Source: Erythrobacter sp. (GTDB lineage: Bacteria > Pseudomonadota > Alphaproteobacteria > Sphingomonadales > Sphingomonadaceae). Taken from it: a DNA stretch of 7,963 nt. This document shows positions 1 to 7,963 of this stretch, one piece after another (the first letter of the stretch is position 1; the number at the start of each line of letters is the position of its first letter). The stretch is taken from positions 1 to 7,963 of the forward strand of contig JABSPI010000083.1 in assembly GCA_013214365.1 (NCBI GenBank). Direction: 5' to 3'. The notes beneath the pieces are model-generated. The model searched no databases. It was not told the origin of the DNA and saw only the letters and a list, made by a program, of their open reading frames with translations. A program made the position numbers and the translations under genes.

Positions 1-701
1 CCGATGGCAGGATCGGACGGATCAATGTCACAGCCAGCGCTTATTGGGCGCTGGGCGAGGATCGCAACAATTTCTTCACCGGTGTGCCCGCCGATATCGA
101 CGCCCAATTTGGCGCGGTTGAGCTGAGCTATGATCGCGACTGGATCCGGATGCGGTTGTCGGGCTTGTATCAAAGCGGCGATAGCGACCCATATGATGAC
201 AAGGAAACCGGTTTCGACGCGATCTTTGAAAACCCTGTCTTTGCCGGGGCTGACACATCCTATTGGATACGTCAAACGATCCCCTTTGCAGGGGGCGGTC
301 GCGCGGTTTCGGTCAATGGTCGCAATGGGATCCTCAACAATTTGCGCTCGTCGAAAGAGCAAGGGCAATCCAATTTCAACAATCCCGGCCTGTGGCTGGT
401 CGGGGTAGGGGCCGATTTTGATCTGACCCCGGAATTTCGGTTGAGCGCGAATGCCAACCATTTGTGGTTCGAGGACACCGCAACACTCGAAAATCTTCGG
501 ATCGAGGGATCAATACCGTCCGAAATCGGATATGATCTCTCGGCCTCGGCGATCTGGCGGCCCAAGGCCAATCAGAATATCGTATTTCGCCTCTCGGGCG
601 CTGCACTGATTTCGGGGGACGGGTTTAGGGACCTGTTCGACAATCTTGGCGGTCAGAACGAGTTTTACTCGGTGCTGGCTAATGTGACATTGAGCTATTG
701 A
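1..701 (+). CDS. Outer-membrane beta-barrel (porin-like) protein, 3' part only
   Basis: The reading frame is open from base 3 to the TGA at 699-701, giving 232 visible C-terminal residues; the start and signal peptide lie before the window. An ATG-like reading from base 84 would be a GTG inside this open frame, so it is not a credible start. The sequence alternates polar and hydrophobic residues in several strand-like blocks (for example RINVTASAYWAL, AVELSYDRDWIRMRLSG, FRLSANANHLWF and NIVFRLSGAALIS), separated by Gly/Asp/Asn-rich loops. It ends in NVTLSY, with hydrophobic residues at -5, -3 and a final Tyr, the usual BAM recognition signal of outer-membrane barrels. A loop block with FDAIFENPVFAG (about 213-248) and another with LRSSKEQGQSNFNNPG (about 343-390) resemble, from memory, barrels found next to multiheme cytochromes. 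The one-base overlap with the following cytochrome implies translational coupling and joint function, probably as a pore or sheath for it. MtrB/PioB kinship is not demonstrated; another porin type is possible. Confidence 0.8.
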   Translation, partial: DGRIGRINVTASAYWALGEDRNNFFTGVPADIDAQFGAVELSYDRDWIRMRLSGLYQSGDSDPYDDKETGFDAIFENPVFAGADTSYWIRQTIPFAGGGRAVSVNGRNGILNNLRSSKEQGQSNFNNPGLWLVGVGADFDLTPEFRLSANANHLWFEDTATLENLRIEGSIPSEIGYDLSASAIWRPKANQNIVFRLSGAALISGDGFRDLFDNLGGQNEFYSVLANVTLSY

Positions 702-814
702 TGGTGGGCAATCGGATCTTGACCATTTCGCGCTTTGCACCGGCCCAGCTGTTGCTGATTGTGGCGGCGGCTTTGCTTGGTATCGCGATTTTCCAGCCCG
801 AGACGCGGGCTGCT
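701..814 (+). other. Signal peptide of the large cytochrome
   Basis: Residues 1-38 show the three-part Sec signal layout: Arg5 and Arg11 in the n-region, an uninterrupted hydrophobic core at about residues 17-31, and a c-region ending in ETRAAD with small residues at -3/-1-compatible positions. Export to the periplasm is required for heme attachment by the cytochrome c maturation machinery. No Cys follows the cleavage site, so lipid anchoring of the Shewanella MtrC/OmcA kind is not indicated. Confidence 0.8.
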
Positions 815-3800
815 GATGGCGAGCGGGCGGTCTATCGCGATTATTACAAGATGGGCGTGTTGGTGCCCCCCGCACCGGCGCGACAGACACAGGCAGAGGC
901 CGATGCCAAATCCGAAGGTTGCCTGACCTGCCACCGGGCCAGTGATGCGCCCACCATGCATGAAAGCAGTGCGGTTGTGCTGGGCTGCACCGATTGCCAC
1001 GGCGGTAATGCCGCGATCGCGGGCAACCCGCAGCTGCCCTATGATCACCCCGATTACACCGCCGCACGCGACAGCGCGCATGTCCTGCCCAAATATCCCG
1101 ACAGCTGGCATTTCCCTTCATCAGCCAATCCTGAACGCTCTTATGCCTTGCTGAACAAGGAATCGCCCGAATTCGTGAAATTCGTGAACCCGTCGGATTA
1201 CCGTGTTGCGCGTGAGGCCTGCGGGTCGTGCCACATCCAAGCGATCGAAAGTGCAGAACGCTCGATCATGGCAACCGGCGCCATGTTGTGGGGTGGGGCG
1301 AGCTACAATAATGGCATTTTGCCGTTCAAGAATTACATTTTGGGCGAGGCCTATACCCGCAGCGGGGAAACCGCGACGATTGCGAGCGTTGGCAATGTCA
1401 TTTCCTCACCTGCATACGGCGAGGGCGACGAATTGTCTCAGGAACAGCGCGATCGCGGGGTGTTGGCGCAGCTTTACCCCCTGCCGACCTGGCATGTTTT
1501 GCCGCCGGCCGATGTGTTCCGTGTCTTTGAACGCGGTGGACGCAATATCCTTTCACAATTTCCCGAAATCGGCCTGCCCAATCCAACCGGCCTGATACAG
1601 CGGTTGGAAGAGCCGGGCCGGCCTGATCTCAAGCAATCAAACCGCGGGCCCGGTACCGGTTTGCGGGTGGCGATCCCTGCGCTCAATATCCACAAGACGC
1701 GCCTCAACGATCCGTTCACCTGGTTTATGGGGACCAATGATCAGCCGGGCGATTACCGCCATTCGGGCTGCGCTTCGTGCCATGTGATCTACGCCAATGA
1801 CCGCGAACCGCGCCACTCTTTGACTTATGCTCAATATGGCCGCGATGGTCAGACCGTGACGGTCGACCCCTGTATCAATCCGGCGGCCAATGCCAACGCA
1901 TCCGCCGCGATGCAGTGTTATTCGCGCAATTCGGCTGGCGAAGGCGGACGGATCCCGGGTGAGGCTTATGACGATCATGGTTCTGACTATGGAGGGGATC
2001 AACCAAGCAGCGGGCTCGCCGGTTTAAGCGGGCAGGGCGCATCGGGTGGATCGGGGCACGGCGCGCTCAAAGGGCCCAATGACGCAGAGCAGGATAATCG
2101 CGATAGCGGGGATTACGCCGAAAATAATGGTGGCCATAGCGGCGCGCCCATTCCTGAAAGCGGCCATCCTTTGCGGCACGTCTTCACCCGCTCCATCCCG
2201 ACCTCGCAATGCATGAATTGCCACATGCACCAGCCCAACATCTTCCTCAATTCCTATCTGGGTTACACGATGTGGGATTATGAGAGCGATGCGCCCTTTA
2301 TGTGGCCGGGGCCGGAAAACACCACGCCGCGGCCCGAGGGTATGAGCGATGCCGAATATGAAGCGTTCTATAAAAGCCAGCGTTTCCCAACGGCCGAGCA
2401 GGTGCGCGCAATCATTGACCGCAACCCCGAGGCCGCCGCGCCGCGGGGAATGTGGGGCGATCTCGATTTTCTGCGCAATGTTTACGAATTGAACCCGCAC
2501 CTGGAGACCACCCAATTTGCCGATTACCACGGTCACGGATGGAATTTCCGCGGCATTTTCAAACGCGACCGTGAAGGCAATCTGCTCGATGCTGAGGGTG
2601 AAATTCTGCGCCCGGGCAACGCGGAAACCGACACGCCTGAACAATTCGCCTATCACGAGGAACGCTGGCGCCAACGTTGGCGCAAGGATGATGAAGACCT
2701 CTTCGTCGATGTGGAACGTGATCCGGCCAATAACGGCACCAACAATCCCGGCACAGCGGTCCATATGATGAGCATCCATGCCGAAGCGGGCATGCAATGC
2801 GTGGATTGCCATTTCGAACAGGACACGCATGGCAATGGCCTGATCTATGGCGAAGTTGCCAATGCGATCGAAATTGGGTGCAAGGATTGCCACGGCACCG
2901 CCGATGCCTACCCCACTTTGCGCACCAGCGGTCCCGCCGCTCCGCCCGAGGGGCACAATCTTGCGCTCCTGCGCAATCCGGATGGTCAAAGGCGGTTCGA
3001 ATGGGTGGAGCGTGATGGCCGTCAGGTTTTGCTGCAGCGCTCGTTGCTTGATCCGGAATTGGAATGGCAGGTCAGCCTGACCAAGGATGCGGTTAATCCC
3101 GATTTGCCGCTCTGCGCGAGCGAGGGGGTTAAGCCGGGTGATGCCTGTTTCAACCCCAAGGCCGCCCGCGCCAAATTGATGAGCGCTAAGGGCGATGACA
3201 CCGGTCTCTTTGAATTTGGCGATGGCATTGCGGTTGAGGACCGTGCGCACCGTGATGATGAGATGGCGTGTTTTACCTGCCACTTGTCGTGGACGACATC
3301 ATGCGGCGGTTGCCATTTGCCGATTGAAGCCAATTGGAAAACCAAGTCGCATCGTTATGAGGGCAAATCGACCCGCAATTTCGCCTCCTACAACCCGCAG
3401 GTTGCGCGCGATCAAATGTTCCAATTGGGCGTGCACCAAACCACCAAGGACAACCAGATCGCGCCGGTGCGCTCGTCCTCTGCATTGGTTCTGTCATCGA
3501 CCAATATCAATCGCGAGCGGATCTATATCCAGCAGCCGCCAATTTCGGCAATCGGGTTTTCAAGCCAGGCTTTTGCCCCGCATTTCCCGCATACGGTGCG
3601 GCGTGAGGAGACCAAGACCTGTTCGGATTGTCACATCTCCGAGGCTGAAGATAACAATGCGATCATGTCGCAATTGATGCTGCTGGGCACCAATTTCGTG
3701 AACTTTGTCGGGATGCATGCCTGGACCGGGCTCGAAGGCGGGATCAGCGCGGTGAGGGTCACCGAATATGATGAGCCTCAAGCTGTTCTGGGCTCCTATC

Positions 3801-5332
3801 TGCACCGCTATTCCTATCCTGATTATTGGCGCATGCATGTCGAGGACAATGATCGCGAGCTGAAGAATTGGGTCCGCGGCGAGGCCTTTGACGGCGATCT
3901 GTCGGGCGAGACCAAGCCGTTTGAGGAATTTGTCAATGTGCATGAAGGCACGCGCGACCGCGTTACCTGTTTGCAATTGCGCGGCGAATATCTCTTCACC
4001 GCTGAAGGTAGAGGCGGCTTCCGCGCCTATGATGTGGCCTCGATCGGGAATAAGGGCGTGTCTGAGCGGATCATCACTGCACCGTTTTCGCCGCTCGGTC
4101 ATGACACCCATGTCGAGACCGAAAACGCAACCTGCATGGCCGTCGCCACCACGCAACCGATCGCGCCAGAGCGCAACACTGCCAAAATGCGCGAGGTTAA
4201 TCAGGAGCAGCCATTCAGCCCAGTCTATGACTACGCCTTTGTCACCGACAGCGTCGAAGGGTTGATCGCGGTCGATATCAATACGCTGGCTGATGGCGAA
4301 CTGCGCGACAACTTCTTCAAACGGGCCATTTTCCCTGACGGGTCGGATGCGTGGAACCCCGATGGTATTTTGAACGGGGCGCGTCACATCACTCTGGCTG
4401 GCGATTATGCCTATATCACCGCCGATGCCGGATTGGTGGTTGTCTATCTGCCCAAGGACGTCCCCGACAATCCGGCGACCGCGCATTACCAGGAAGAGTG
4501 CGAGCTTGATCCGGACAATCCGCGCGAAAGCTGTCTTGCCCCGCGGGTGACAGCGGTGGTTGCGATGGATGATGCGCGCGCCTCAACCATACAATTCCGC
4601 TATTTGTGGGTGACCGATGCCGAAGGGCTCAAAGTGTTTGATGTCACCCGGATGGACACGCCCGTGGCAGTGCCCGAAGCCACCGTTGCGCTTGATGATG
4701 CGCAGCGCATTTATGTCGCTCGCACCTATGCCTATGTCGCGGCAAAGGGGCAGGGATTGATGATCTATGATGTCACTAATCCGCGCGCGCCGCGCCTCTA
4801 TCAACAGGTCACGCTTGGTGGTGAGCTCAACGATACACATGACGTGATCGTCGGGTCGACCAATGCGACTTTGTTTGCCTATGTCGCCGACGGTAGGAAC
4901 GGTTTGAAAGTGCTGCAATTGACCAGCCCGGATAGCCAGCGCAACTTCTATGGCTTTAGCCCGGCGCCCAAACCTGAAATGATCGCTTGGGCGCGCACGC
5001 CAAGTCCGGCGATTGCTCTGTCCAAGGGGCTCGACCGGGACCGTGCGGTTGATGAAACCGGCGGGCAGATGGCGGTGTTCGGACGGCTTGGTTCGCGGCC
5101 CTTCAACCGCTGCGAGATGGAGCAATTGTTCTTCACCCGGCCTCGGCTTGATGGCGATGCCAGTGAATTGACCGCCTGTGAGGAGGGGCGTGAAGGGCGC
5201 GTTTGGCGGGTGACCGATGACGTTGATATGACCAGCTGGGTTGGTCGCGACAATCCGTGGGCCCCTTCTTCAAGGCGGCGTGCAGCCAATCAAGCAAGGC
5301 CAGTCATGCAAGCGCCTGCGGGCGCGCAATGA
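701..5332 (+). CDS. Secreted decaheme c-type cytochrome fused to an LVIVD-repeat beta-propeller
   Basis: This gene encodes 1543 residues from the ATG at 701. A TTG at 698 would add one residue, but ATG is preferred and gives a TGATG overlap with the barrel stop. Residues 1-37 form a Sec signal peptide: basic start, hydrophobic LLLIVAAALLGIAIF, and cleavage near TRA/AD. There is no lipobox cysteine. Ten canonical CXXCH heme sites start at residues 74, 96, 174, 357, 504, 700, 727, 857, 868 and 974; hemes 8 and 9 are only 11 residues apart. Residues about 412-486 are a Gly/Ser/Asp/Asn-rich linker. Residues about 1090-1410 hold six repeats of the pattern YAYVxDxxGLxVxDVT, matching the LVIVD propeller family of surface proteins. 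A conserved-looking tail with GLDRDRAVDETGGQMAVFG follows. The probable role is electron transfer in the periplasm or at the outer membrane with the upstream barrel. Heme density is far lower than in MtrA-type decahemes, so the fold is likely different. Donor and acceptor are unknown. Confidence 0.93.
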   Translation: MVGNRILTISRFAPAQLLLIVAAALLGIAIFQPETRAADGERAVYRDYYKMGVLVPPAPARQTQAEADAKSEGCLTCHRASDAPTMHESSAVVLGCTDCHGGNAAIAGNPQLPYDHPDYTAARDSAHVLPKYPDSWHFPSSANPERSYALLNKESPEFVKFVNPSDYRVAREACGSCHIQAIESAERSIMATGAMLWGGASYNNGILPFKNYILGEAYTRSGETATIASVGNVISSPAYGEGDELSQEQRDRGVLAQLYPLPTWHVLPPADVFRVFERGGRNILSQFPEIGLPNPTGLIQRLEEPGRPDLKQSNRGPGTGLRVAIPALNIHKTRLNDPFTWFMGTNDQPGDYRHSGCASCHVIYANDREPRHSLTYAQYGRDGQTVTVDPCINPAANANASAAMQCYSRNSAGEGGRIPGEAYDDHGSDYGGDQPSSGLAGLSGQGASGGSGHGALKGPNDAEQDNRDSGDYAENNGGHSGAPIPESGHPLRHVFTRSIPTSQCMNCHMHQPNIFLNSYLGYTMWDYESDAPFMWPGPENTTPRPEGMSDAEYEAFYKSQRFPTAEQVRAIIDRNPEAAAPRGMWGDLDFLRNVYELNPHLETTQFADYHGHGWNFRGIFKRDREGNLLDAEGEILRPGNAETDTPEQFAYHEERWRQRWRKDDEDLFVDVERDPANNGTNNPGTAVHMMSIHAEAGMQCVDCHFEQDTHGNGLIYGEVANAIEIGCKDCHGTADAYPTLRTSGPAAPPEGHNLALLRNPDGQRRFEWVERDGRQVLLQRSLLDPELEWQVSLTKDAVNPDLPLCASEGVKPGDACFNPKAARAKLMSAKGDDTGLFEFGDGIAVEDRAHRDDEMACFTCHLSWTTSCGGCHLPIEANWKTKSHRYEGKSTRNFASYNPQVARDQMFQLGVHQTTKDNQIAPVRSSSALVLSSTNINRERIYIQQPPISAIGFSSQAFAPHFPHTVRREETKTCSDCHISEAEDNNAIMSQLMLLGTNFVNFVGMHAWTGLEGGISAVRVTEYDEPQAVLGSYLHRYSYPDYWRMHVEDNDRELKNWVRGEAFDGDLSGETKPFEEFVNVHEGTRDRVTCLQLRGEYLFTAEGRGGFRAYDVASIGNKGVSERIITAPFSPLGHDTHVETENATCMAVATTQPIAPERNTAKMREVNQEQPFSPVYDYAFVTDSVEGLIAVDINTLADGELRDNFFKRAIFPDGSDAWNPDGILNGARHITLAGDYAYITADAGLVVVYLPKDVPDNPATAHYQEECELDPDNPRESCLAPRVTAVVAMDDARASTIQFRYLWVTDAEGLKVFDVTRMDTPVAVPEATVALDDAQRIYVARTYAYVAAKGQGLMIYDVTNPRAPRLYQQVTLGGELNDTHDVIVGSTNATLFAYVADGRNGLKVLQLTSPDSQRNFYGFSPAPKPEMIAWARTPSPAIALSKGLDRDRAVDETGGQMAVFGRLGSRPFNRCEMEQLFFTRPRLDGDASELTACEEGREGRVWRVTDDVDMTSWVGRDNPWAPSSRRRAANQARPVMQAPAGAQ
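920..3634 (+). other. Ten-heme region of the large cytochrome (10 CXXCH motifs)
   Basis: Heme-c attachment motifs are encoded at 920-934 (CLTCH), 986-1000 (CTDCH), 1220-1234 (CGSCH), 1769-1783 (CASCH), 2210-2224 (CMNCH), 2798-2812 (CVDCH), 2879-2893 (CKDCH), 3269-3283 (CFTCH), 3302-3316 (CGGCH) and 3620-3634 (CSDCH). All are canonical and in one frame. They cluster as close pairs (1-2, 6-7, 8-9) with gaps of up to 196 residues between clusters, which contain many extra His residues that could be distal ligands. Non-heme Cys at about residues 391 and 406, and 805 and 816, lie in short loops and could form disulfides. Confidence 0.95.
1934..2158 (+). other. Gly/Ser/Asp/Asn-rich low-complexity linker in the cytochrome
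   Basis: Residues about 412-486, between hemes 4 and 5, are dominated by Gly, Ser, Asp and Asn, with stretches such as GLSGQGASGGSGHGALKG and NRDSGDYAENNGGHSG. There is no heme motif and almost no bulky hydrophobic residue. This looks like a flexible or surface-exposed insertion separating a four-heme N-terminal part from a six-heme part. The Asp- and Gly-rich composition could also bind calcium, but no intact RTX nonapeptide array is visible. Confidence 0.6.
3971..4930 (+). other. LVIVD-type beta-propeller repeats (about six blades)
   Basis: Six divergent repeats are visible, each with a Tyr/Phe-Ala/hydrophobic-Tyr-Val strand, a small-polar turn (TAEG, TDSVEG, TADAG, TDAEG, AAKGQG, ADGRNG) and a second strand ending near D-V/I-T/N: about 3971-4045, 4228-4290, 4390-4453, 4599-4656, 4711-4785 and 4870-4930. 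This is the signature of LVIVD repeats, which fold as propellers in bacterial and archaeal surface proteins. Two Cys (residues 1267 and 1278) sit in the longest inter-blade loop and may form a disulfide. The likely role is protein docking or substrate binding; this is inferred. Confidence 0.75.
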
Positions 5333-5423: not shown

Positions 5424-6284
5424 CTAGATGCGTTCGGAGAACATGTTCTGCATCATCGGTTCAAGGTGCTCTTCATAGCGGGCCAGCGTTTGCCAATTGC
5501 CCACCGGTTGGAAGTGCGAGACAAGATTGCCTCCGCGCCACAAATGCAGGCTGTAGGAGGGAGGCTCAGCGGCCACAATCGCTCGATTGTCGGCCGCATG
5601 TGTATCTACCGGGCGCAGGTCAAGCGTGACCGCTGGAGCGACTGCCGGGCTGACGCAAATCGGGATGCCTTCCACCATGGCTTGCACTGGGCGGTGCAAA
5701 TGGCCCGCCTGGATCGAGATGATCTGCTTATGACCTCTGACTGTCTCGCAAAAGCGCTTGAGCCACGGTTCGTTCTCGCACGGGTCCATCCAGTCAATGC
5801 CGGCCGCTAGCGGCGGGTGGTGCATAAATATAATCGTCGGCGTATCAGGGTGGTTGCTGAGTTGTTCGGCCAGCCATGCGGCGCGGCTTGTACAAAAGGC
5901 CCCGCCATGCCGGCCCGGTTCAAACGTATCGAGGCACAACACTCTCAGCGGGTCAGACGCTTCGCAGGTTTCAATCGCAAATTGGACAAAGCCGTCATGG
6001 GTGGGGCAATCGCTGAATGCCTTGAGCATTTCCTCACGGTTGTCGTGATTGCCCGGGATGACATGGACGGGGAAGGGGCATTGTGCGACCAATCGCTTGA
6101 TCCGCGCATAGCATTCGGGTTGCCCGCCATCGGTCAAATCGCCGGTTAAGATCAACATGTCGGGGTGCATCAGCTGGCTGCATAAGTGCGCCAATACGCT
6201 GCGCAGGCGAGCGACATTGAATTCGTCTTCGCCGGCCTGTGGTTCAAAGCCCACATGCGTGTCTGTGATCTGTGCGATCAGCAC
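5424..6284 (-). CDS. Class III metallophosphoesterase (Icc/CpdA-like cyclic nucleotide phosphodiesterase family)
   Basis: The product is 286 residues, a normal length for the family. All dimetal-site motifs are present and in order: D8-T-H10 near the start, G48-D49 in TGDLTDGG, GNHD at 78-81, His155/156 in the MHHPP block, and GHLH at 194-197. This is the D-x-H / GD / GNH[DE] / H / GHxH set of class III 3',5'-cyclic nucleotide phosphodiesterases, which use two metal ions (often Fe/Mn). There is no signal peptide, so the enzyme is cytosolic. The start is GTG at 6284, supported by a strong Shine-Dalgarno 6 bases upstream. The gene begins 23 bp after the stop of the minus-strand decaheme cytochrome, so the two are probably co-transcribed. 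The substrate could be cAMP, but relatives also hydrolyse other phosphodiesters or UDP-sugars, so cpdA is not assigned. The protein is fairly Cys-rich in its first half. Confidence 0.9.
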   Translation of the reverse strand: MLIAQITDTHVGFEPQAGEDEFNVARLRSVLAHLCSQLMHPDMLILTGDLTDGGQPECYARIKRLVAQCPFPVHVIPGNHDNREEMLKAFSDCPTHDGFVQFAIETCEASDPLRVLCLDTFEPGRHGGAFCTSRAAWLAEQLSNHPDTPTIIFMHHPPLAAGIDWMDPCENEPWLKRFCETVRGHKQIISIQAGHLHRPVQAMVEGIPICVSPAVAPAVTLDLRPVDTHAADNRAIVAAEPPSYSLHLWRGGNLVSHFQPVGNWQTLARYEEHLEPMMQNMFSERI

Positions 6285-6307: not shown

Positions 6308-7963
6308 CTAGGGTTTTATACTGCCAAACGCCGCTGCAACAGTGTTATTGGGTTCTTTTCCGTGGAGATCGGCCGGGAAGGCGGGATGATCTTCGGGTCG
6401 CCAGGGGGCTGTAGGCGTGTGATAGCCATGACACATCGCACAGCCTGATGGGACGATTTCCTCCGTCTTGACGGCGGTCTCGCCCAAATGGCAATCGCGG
6501 CAGCTCTCCAGATCGGGGATCAATAGATCGGTCGCCGCATTTGATTGCGAGGTCGCGTGGCAATCAGCGCATTCGGCCACATCGTCGCCGTGGGCACTAT
6601 GATTGAAAGCCCCCTTCATCAAAAACCGGTCAGGCAGATTAACAGGGGTCAGGTCGCGCCGCCCATTAGTAGTGGTGGGGATGTGGCATTCGCCGCATAC
6701 GCCGGTTTCTTCGAGCGCGCGATTGATCGCAATATAGTCGCTCACCGGACGGCCGAAATTGGTGTAATAGCGCCCGCCTCGGGCGAATTGCCCTGGTCGT
6801 CCGCGTCCAGCCGCGAGTTCCATACGGCCACCGCGATCCATCGCTGCCAACTCCGCCATCAAAGTGTCCACATCGCCGTGGCTAAGCGAGCGAAACTGCC
6901 CCCCGGTCCGCTCAAAAACGAGGCTGTGGCAGCTCTCGCAGGCGTCTTCCATCACCACCGGCTTGTAGTCGCCCAGATCCTGCACCCGTTTCTCGCTCAG
7001 ACCGACACTGGCGAGTTTTGTGCGTTCAATATCGCTCCATTTCACATCGCCCAGCAATGCGATCGCATCATCCGATAGCCCACCCGTAATCATCGCCTCG
7101 CGTTCTTTGGAGGACCATTGGGTGTGGCAATCGCTGCATTCGAGCGGCTTGCCATATTGCTTGAGGCTGATCGCCATGCGCGCCACGCCGCCTTGTATAT
7201 CCATATGGTCGTCATGCGGGAATTTAAGCCCGCTTTGTTCGACCGGCTTGTCGTCCAGCGATATGCGCGCGGGGCCATCGGCGAAATGTGCGGTGTAAAT
7301 AGACGGCCGAAATTGGGGATGCTTTTCGCCAAAATCGGCTGCATTGCCAAATTGCGGGCGCGTTATTCTGGTGTCGAGTTGGTCGTGGCAATCGGCACAA
7401 AATTGTTCATTTGATCCGGCAAAACGCACCTTGCCCTCATGCTCGATATGGCACGACACGCAGCCCAGCGGCCCTTCCTTGCCAAGTGTCTCCGCAATCG
7501 ACCACTGGATCGCATCGCCAGCGCTGAGCGGGGCCATGCCTTCTTGAAGCCGGTCCATCTTGGCATGCTCGCCGAGCTCTTCGTGGCATGAGATACAGGT
7601 CTCATCCTGCACCGAGACAAAGGGCGTGACGTGGCATGCCTCGCAATTGCCTTCGAGATCGTGGTGCAACATGCTCAGCTCGCCCGTGCTCCACGATGCA
7701 TCCATCAATACCTGCCCCTGATCGAGATTGTTCGGATCATTCTCTACCGGAGAGCGGATAAGGTGACTGACAATCGGCACACTCAACAGCAGGATCAAAA
7801 TGCTTGCGGCAAACGCCCATGCCATGCCGCGCTTGCTGGGCAGGGCGCCGGCAAGCCCGAAGCGCGCAGCGGGGTCCTTTAAAGCCGCGGCTTTTTTCGA
7901 CTGCGAGATGATGATCTGGATCGGTGCCTTGGCGCCTGCAATGCTCTTTTCAGAGCCGTCATC
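6308..7963 (-). CDS. Membrane-anchored decaheme cytochrome c (c3/c7-like), 5' end beyond window
   Basis: The frame is open from the window edge to the TAG at 6308, giving at least 551 residues. An ATG at 7825 would give 505 residues, but it lacks a Shine-Dalgarno, and the 46 codons before it are open with coding-like codon use, so the true start probably lies outside. Numbering from that Met, a transmembrane helix spans about residues 2-23 (MAWAFAASILILLLSVPIV), preceded by basic SKRG. Ten CXXCH sites follow, at residues 61, 77, 122, 143, 230, 296, 377, 419, 442 and 462. Motifs such as FPHDDH (202-207) and FNHSAH (407-412) are the F-x-H-x-x-H distal-ligand signature of c3/c7-like cytochromes. 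The topology implied is a cytosolic N-terminus, one helix, and a periplasmic ten-heme domain. From memory, related sphingomonad proteins carry an FHA-like domain in front; that part is not visible here. Probable role: periplasmic electron relay. Confidence 0.9.
   Translation of the reverse strand, partial: DDGSEKSIAGAKAPIQIIISQSKKAAALKDPAARFGLAGALPSKRGMAWAFAASILILLLSVPIVSHLIRSPVENDPNNLDQGQVLMDASWSTGELSMLHHDLEGNCEACHVTPFVSVQDETCISCHEELGEHAKMDRLQEGMAPLSAGDAIQWSIAETLGKEGPLGCVSCHIEHEGKVRFAGSNEQFCADCHDQLDTRITRPQFGNAADFGEKHPQFRPSIYTAHFADGPARISLDDKPVEQSGLKFPHDDHMDIQGGVARMAISLKQYGKPLECSDCHTQWSSKEREAMITGGLSDDAIALLGDVKWSDIERTKLASVGLSEKRVQDLGDYKPVVMEDACESCHSLVFERTGGQFRSLSHGDVDTLMAELAAMDRGGRMELAAGRGRPGQFARGGRYYTNFGRPVSDYIAINRALEETGVCGECHIPTTTNGRRDLTPVNLPDRFLMKGAFNHSAHGDDVAECADCHATSQSNAATDLLIPDLESCRDCHLGETAVKTEEIVPSGCAMCHGYHTPTAPWRPEDHPAFPADLHGKEPNNTVAAAFGSIKP
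6428..7645 (-). other. Ten-heme region of the anchored cytochrome (10 CXXCH motifs)
   Basis: In order from the N-terminus the motifs are CEACH (7631-7645), CISCH (7583-7597), CVSCH (7448-7462), CADCH (7385-7399), CSDCH (7124-7138), CESCH (6926-6940), CGECH (6683-6697), CADCH (6557-6571), CRDCH (6488-6502) and CAMCH (6428-6442). The first four and last three form tight groups; the middle three are spaced 66-87 residues apart. An Arg/Gly-rich stretch lies between hemes 6 and 7. Confidence 0.95.
7756..7825 (-). other. Transmembrane helix / signal-anchor of the decaheme cytochrome
   Basis: About 22 mostly hydrophobic residues (AWAFAASILILLLSVPIV and onward) are flanked upstream by Lys/Arg and followed by an acidic, polar stretch. 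By the positive-inside rule this places the upstream part in the cytosol and the hemes in the periplasm. No good signal-peptidase site is apparent after it, so it is more likely an anchor than a cleaved signal. Confidence 0.75.

Follow-up and report, generated by a model that had tools for sequence, protein, structure and literature searches.

A barrel and giant decaheme gene pair of Erythrobacter sp. as the likely outer-membrane end of a recurring, proposed NAD(P)H-to-surface electron path

The window, that is, the whole stretch of DNA analysed here, comprises the 7,963 nucleotides of contig JABSPI010000083.1 of Erythrobacter sp. (assembly GCA_013214365.1) and carries the 3' part of a gene for a predicted outer-membrane barrel, followed by the gene for a giant protein with ten heme-binding motifs. 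It holds the outer-membrane side and some of the inner side of a gene set that recurs in relatives and is predicted to provide one electron path from cytoplasmic NAD(P)H through both membranes to the cell surface. Seven parts belong to this one system: a protein with flavin adenine dinucleotide (FAD), cyclic-nucleotide-binding (cNMP) and 4Fe-4S domains, a membrane protein, an anchored decaheme protein with an FHA-like region, a pentaheme protein, an HbpS-like lipoprotein, the barrel and the giant. Documented below are the gene content, the heme motifs, the constancy with which the genes occur together and the homology that links the inner part to PCC4-like loci, PCC3 and PCC4 being putative porin-cytochrome clusters proposed by He et al. 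2017 (PMC5566968). The system is best read as an electron conduit through the whole envelope, in which a PCC4-like inner chassis is combined with an outer-membrane module of its own. That the barrel-giant system conducts electrons across the outer membrane, in either direction, is judged somewhat probable from these comparisons.

The association was followed in samples of 196 genomes of the order, 289 of the class and 299 of the phylum. Within the order, the giant is full-length in 39 genomes, and the barrel was found in the same 39, adjacent in each by coordinates. Within the class, strong giants occur in 20 genomes with the barrel again in the same 20 and adjacent, a contig end cutting the giant in one of them (G202). 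As the two samples have three genomes in common, the pair is present in 56 genomes. The phylum sample contains a full-length giant in five genomes, all of the same class. Matches set aside were confined to a single domain in the order (G086, 47 bits) and the class (G216, G306, G330, G377 and G430, 30-41 bits), with seven further weak ones in the phylum (25-41 bits). Giants occurring routinely without the barrel, the pattern that was to refute the original prediction, can therefore be rejected, since no strong giant lacks its barrel in the order and class samples. Both the giant and the barrel have matches in thousands of protein clusters. For the membrane protein, strong matches come from these 39 genomes of the order, with seven weak matches elsewhere (at most 60.5 bits). 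By coordinates, 21 of the 39 have it no more than 20 kb from the giant and 17 do not, while in our own genome it is on another contig; six of the 17 distant ones are on the same contig as the giant, more than 300 kb away. Co-occurrence is thus not mere linkage. Similarly, 38 of the 39 give a strong match for the pentaheme protein, the exception being our own incomplete genome, with one weak match elsewhere (G162, 20.8 bits). Presence varies inside a single genus, g1 having six genomes with the set and five without among the genomes listed. Furthermore, 16 genomes from ten further families of the class have inner-membrane genes next to, and in the same orientation as, the HbpS-like, barrel and giant genes; all three inner genes are present in 15, the flavoprotein alone on one truncated contig, and the pentaheme gene falls within the fetched stretch in nine.

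A genome scan confirmed at least 563 loci, the best 80 of which were kept, and the locus counts in this paragraph rest on these 80. The barrel adjoins the giant in 77 of the 77 loci with room, three contigs stopping too early. Of nine loci scored as non-adjacent by their frame coordinates, eight have a stop-to-stop giant frame that extends backwards over the barrel, which only reflects how the frames are delimited, and in L056 the giant frame is broken and begins 366 bases after the barrel. Where the contig leaves room, the pentaheme gene is found upstream in 71 of 72 loci and the HbpS-like gene in 73 of 74 (in L062 in one frame with the barrel), L079 being the sole miss in both cases. The three inner-membrane genes were all reached in 53 of the 80; at short flanks three loci show one of them and six none, and 18 lack them within the at least 7 kb available downstream. 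An alphaproteobacterial host, which had been presumed from the letters, is likely: 79 of the 80 loci carry sphingomonad or alphaproteobacterial names, and the other is a 'Proteobacteria bacterium'.

The window is the entire contig C472 of the assembly (G000; 2.63 Mb, 489 contigs, 84% complete). Its features are as follows.

3..701, plus strand: 3' part of the barrel gene, encoding the C-terminal 232 residues of about 610-650; frame open at the window start; family model with about 18 strands, AlgE-like.
701..5332, plus strand: giant decaheme cytochrome, 1543 residues, 170 kDa, with hydrophobic N-terminus and C-terminal propeller; ATG 701 chosen by comparison with relatives.
920..3634, plus strand: ten-CxxCH stretch of the giant, motifs at residues 74, 96, 174, 357, 504, 700, 727, 857, 868 and 974.
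3953..4915 (approximate), plus strand: LVIVD-repeat beta-propeller region of the giant, PF08309 E 1.9e-13; limits transferred by hand from the L042 model.
5424..6284, minus strand: CpdA/SpdA-like metallophosphoesterase, PF00149 E 1.9e-17; SpdA model 141.9 bits, under its cut-off of 400.
6308..7963, minus strand: second decaheme protein, 10 CxxCH, one hydrophobic helix; its N-terminal FHA-like region and 5' end lie off the contig.

The barrel gene overlaps the ten-heme gene by one base, as had been read from the sequence beforehand: the barrel stop TGA at 699-701 shares one base with ATG 701 (TATTGATGGT). The identical overlap is seen at the script-chosen start in 65 of the 80 loci. Counted from this ATG, the earlier length of 1543 residues also stands, while the TTG at 698 taken by the open-reading-frame tool (frame 698-5332) gives 1544. 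Neither the C-terminal LVIVD repeats of the giant nor the second ten-motif protein had been pointed out beforehand. The two minus-strand genes are convergent to the barrel-giant pair, and the metallophosphoesterase occupies the same position in many relatives. The N-terminus of the second decaheme protein is FHA/YscD-like in L002, under Pfam cut-offs, and a similar N-terminus occurs in a variant on contig C65 of the same assembly (L127, G000:C65:1-3252), where a second anchored-decaheme start is followed by the membrane protein and the flavoprotein. As a direct continuation of the window C65 was rejected. Over 194 bases its decaheme start shares 94% identity with that of the window, and there is no overlap between the contig ends, which points to a second copy or to a variant from another strain in the bin. 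The barrel fragment aligns to residues 381-612 of a 612-residue Sphingobium homologue with 76% identity. A search of our own genome gave this fragment alone, and since the window is an entire contig, the barrel cannot be completed from this assembly.

The complete locus can be observed in relatives. Thirteen plasmid records found by tblastn each cover at least 80% of the giant at 60-80% identity, and three of them (L002, L003 and L004; Sphingobium, Sphingopyxis) were examined in detail. The cluster resides on large plasmids in both genera, two of the 13 records being typed as conjugative. Operon 1 runs in the order pentaheme (four CxxCH and one CX4CH), HbpS-like protein (PF03928), barrel and giant; the convergent operon 2 comprises flavoprotein, membrane protein, FHA-like ten-heme protein and phosphodiesterase. 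On pMC4 of Sphingopyxis indica operon 1 is present and operon 2 is not nearby. A simple pattern recognised a lipobox-like motif (hydrophobic-x-x-C-G) in the HbpS-like protein of 65 of 76 loci. The flavoprotein of operon 2 has two cNMP-binding and several 4Fe-4S domain matches (PF13247 E 2.9e-11 in L002), and in four of the four untruncated flavoproteins examined a GSGPAG motif for FAD binding directly precedes the start, whether annotated or assumed; in L002 (28566-31043, minus strand) and relatives the annotated start thus leaves this FAD-binding motif out. At L129 3052-6423 and L130 6850-10206 a single frame of about 1120 residues encodes the flavoprotein joined to the membrane protein, which suggests direct electron transfer between them. 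An NAD(P)H-FAD protein next to a membrane protein of di-heme-b type recalls ferric reductase and NADPH oxidase, and the cNMP domains and phosphodiesterase gene suggest signalling control. Both features would suit an extracellular generator of reactive oxygen, in which an NADPH-oxidase-like chain would deliver electrons to oxygen at the surface under cyclic-nucleotide gating. Such a generator would make the giant propeller protein superfluous, however, and we regard it as very improbable.

For the giant, all ten CxxCH motifs are invariant among 58 aligned proteins (the first two in 57 of 57 with letters), so that they are far beyond chance. A further 15 histidines are kept in at least 95% of the same 58, a number sufficient for ten second ligands. 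Ten CxxCH were counted in 79 of 81 complete frames, the other two being L040, cut by a contig end, and the broken frame of L056. The giant is probably exported, judging from its hydrophobic N-terminus. In the L042 model, residues 961-1180, the LVIVD part, have a predicted local distance difference test (pLDDT) score of 57-94 per ten-residue block, with 15 of 22 blocks above 80. The matches to this model are beta-propellers, Cps50 and BamB among them, at E about 1e-5 and with a TM-score to target of 0.4-0.5. LVIVD repeats have been described from cell-surface proteins (PMC2447325). No solved structure matched the giant or the barrel by sequence search. Identification of the giant as ExtM was rejected, as NCBIfam NF040943 gave local matches only, with 65.9 bits vs a cut-off of 800. 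Other large multiheme proteins with 10-12 motifs (L124, L125 and L126) have a segment in common with the giant, at 58-73 bits.

The family model of the barrel shows about 18 strands of AlgE/OprD type, with AlgE as the best match at 14% identity over the aligned part; the Alginate_exp family PF13372 is matched by only one of 14 barrels, at E 0.12, though the fold is alike. Erythrobacter sp. SD-21 was not found by name among the 120 listed of 7776 barrel homologues. In ordinary porins the outer loops are not more conserved than the strands. Here, with the topology taken from the model, the outer loops are more conserved (mean entropy 0.60) than the strands (0.77), and the 72-residue loop L7 reaches 0.33. 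It is in this light that the main rival explanation should be considered, namely that the AlgE/OprD-type barrel is a pore for a specific solute and that the giant acts in the periplasm as a reductase or oxidase supplied by the inner chain, with no electron crossing of the outer membrane. We know of no cytochrome partner for any 18-strand barrel of this type. The near-invariant 72-residue outer loop and the conserved outer mouth, as modelled, would fit a protein partner or plug better than an unobstructed pore; the gene layout resembles porin-cytochrome clusters, and the cell-surface occurrence of LVIVD repeats points the same way. The substrate pore appears unlikely, although it retains the largest share among the alternatives to conduction.

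The inner part was compared with PCC4. The membrane-protein motif of PCC3 and PCC4, WX3HX13H twice with SGXXG (PMC5566968), is invariant in 11 of 11 aligned membrane proteins of the present system. A search of the phylum sample with this protein gave a match in 21 of 299 genomes. Seven loci (L133, L134, L136, L137, L138, L141 and L142) combine the membrane protein with a protein of three to four CxxCH, an iron-sulfur (Fe-S)/cNMP protein and a 10-heme protein; a 5-heme protein is present as well in three of the seven. From their gene content these loci were judged to be PCC4. In profile comparison with these PCC4-like loci, E-values of 9e-53 for the Fe-S protein, 3e-22 (2.9e-22) for the membrane protein and 2e-21 for the decaheme protein were obtained, and the PCC4-like tetraheme matched the present pentaheme at 4e-20. 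Because cross-matches between different multiheme sets go down to E 4e-9, weight is placed only on much stronger values; the PCC4-like 5-heme protein against the giant gave about 1e-3. A PCC4-like barrel profile, built from only two frames chosen by eye, had no match to the present barrel. The matches for the inner parts and the absence of one for the barrel imply that the inner chassis is common with PCC4-like loci while the outer-membrane module appears different. The Fe-S/cNMP protein (with PF13247, as in PCC4 subgroup II), the WX3HX13H membrane protein, the anchored decaheme and the c554-type cytochrome are thus homologous, whereas the giant decaheme-propeller and the HbpS-like lipoprotein are additions without counterpart in PCC4-like loci, the flavoprotein domain is fused to the Fe-S protein, and no separate 5-heme protein of the PCC4 kind was seen. 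The multiheme sets also differ: PCC4 has proteins with 4, 5 and 10 motifs, and the present system has the pentaheme with its four CxxCH and one CX4CH, a ten-motif protein and the ten-motif giant.

These homologies bear on the direction of flow. He et al. hypothesised inward electron uptake for PCC4, which is found in iron oxidisers, and named an Erythrobacter Mn(II) oxidiser as a PCC3 holder, whose cluster might be the present one; the accessible text of that paper gives no experimental test of PCC4 (PMC5566968). With four components homologous to PCC4-like loci, an inward conduit would draw electrons from an extracellular donor, Mn(II) and Fe(II) being examples, and supply them to the pool of quinone or NAD(P); it would form a share of the conduit reading, not an addition to it. 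The chain, however, starts at an NAD(P)H flavoprotein, and He et al. liken the membrane protein of their clusters to ferric reductases and NADPH oxidases, which run outward (PMC5566968). By this analogy the outward direction is most likely, and inward flow is assigned a low probability. PCC3, like the present system, combines a porin with multiheme proteins on the outer and the periplasmic side, and its membrane protein carries the same motif. It differs in its median of 34 and 21 hemes, its repeat-rich proteins and mostly large porins (PMC5566968), compared with 10 and 10 hemes and a barrel modelled with about 18 strands here. One PCC3-like locus (L139) has proteins with 24 and 27 CxxCH beside the same kind of membrane protein.

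Similar to MtrAB and PioAB, to which the original prediction had likened it, the system places a barrel beside a putatively exported ten-heme protein. This likeness does not extend to the families themselves. PF11854 (MtrB_PioB) matched none of 14 barrels at E<=10 and nothing in our own genome (in 14 control genomes there was one match, under the cut-off), and the MtrA/DmsE-type model TIGR03508 reached 16.6 bits vs a cut-off of 192.2; membership was accordingly rejected. The giant further differs in its propeller and in being about five times the size of MtrA. The barrel model, of moderate confidence, is of the AlgE/OprD kind and shows about 18 strands vs 28 predicted motifs (PMC4245776). MtrB-type barrels were not among the 50 matches listed in either of two fold comparisons, an absence that excludes nothing. 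The inner chassis of the Geobacter porin-cytochrome (Pcc) systems is taken to differ from the present one. Compared by description, OmbB-OmaB-OmcB of Geobacter has porins with 18-22 predicted strands beside multiheme cytochromes (PMC4245776), so that an 18-strand barrel is within range. A survey of Mtr distribution reported, in its accessible text, only one alphaproteobacterial MtrCAB (PMC8805035). That the conduit class is poorly described, as first supposed, agrees with literature searches, with subscription papers and preprints outside their scope: no test of its predicted role was found, and no paper joins LVIVD, FHA domain or alginate export with multiheme cytochromes. Among the matches listed for Sphingobium and extracellular electron transfer, no title concerned such a system.

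Taken as a conduit, the system may operate in the following manner. The flavoprotein, binding FAD and NAD(P)H and fused to two cyclic-nucleotide-binding domains and 4Fe-4S clusters, would feed the membrane protein, whose two HX13H motifs likely hold two b-hemes. The FHA-like anchored decaheme and the pentaheme would then take electrons through the periplasm to the 18-strand barrel, which, with its nearly invariant outer mouth, may hold or dock the giant decaheme and the HbpS-like lipoprotein. The hemes and propeller of the giant would be exposed outside and would pass electrons on, most likely outward, while the cNMP domains, the FHA-like domain and the neighbouring phosphodiesterase might gate the flow.

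Several observations weigh against this scheme. The b561 match of the membrane protein is sub-threshold (22.1 bits vs 30.1), as is the FHA/YscD-like N-terminus of the decaheme (27.6 and 17.6 bits vs 33.2 and 20.7). At 154 residues per heme the giant departs widely from MtrA homologues, for which a ratio of about 33 is given (PMC5566968), and no lipobox was seen at its N-terminus. Its heme part models badly, a 1200-residue L042 piece having a mean pLDDT of 48, and confidence in the barrel model is moderate (mean pLDDT 63); moreover, the fold relatives of the barrel carry solutes or alginate, not electrons. At L079, neither the HbpS-like gene nor the pentaheme gene stands beside the pair. Outside the class, G615 has the flavoprotein, membrane protein, decaheme, HbpS-like protein and barrel with no giant detected in the assembly; its contig ends 330 bases past the barrel, so that true absence and a gap are indistinguishable. 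L129 and L130 carry the inner module without HbpS-like gene, barrel or giant nearby and have at least 7 kb beyond it, hence the inner module can exist without these outer parts nearby. As for the proposal of an outer-membrane conduit pair, the fixed partnership of barrel and giant stood, and conduction across the outer membrane stays an inference, as it was there; the account was incomplete, the pair being the outer end of a larger system with a PCC4-like inner half, and the barrel of G615 without a detected giant counts against it.

A wider proposal is that a further conduit architecture exists, in which a PCC4-like NAD(P)H-to-periplasm chassis is joined to a narrow AlgE-type barrel capped by a 170-kDa decaheme-propeller, with cyclic-nucleotide/FHA-like gating, and that it is common in sphingomonads and other alphaproteobacteria not thought to be electroactive; this we hold to be possible, somewhat short of an even chance. 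Should this hold, a sizeable group of alphaproteobacteria from the environment, represented by 39 of the 196 genomes sampled from the order, would possess a complete putative route for electrons linking NAD(P)H with the exterior, signalling domains included, the inner part of conduits would be a module joined to different outer-membrane parts, and an 18-strand AlgE-type barrel could serve in a conduit. A testable gene set is available in named isolates of Sphingobium, Erythrobacter and Porphyrobacter.

Upstream of the cluster in Sphingobium herbicidovorans (L002 559-14668), CHAT and CHASE2 genes were found together with a ShlB/FhaC-type gene and a gene for a 2092-residue hypothetical protein, the last two of which look like a two-partner secretion pair.

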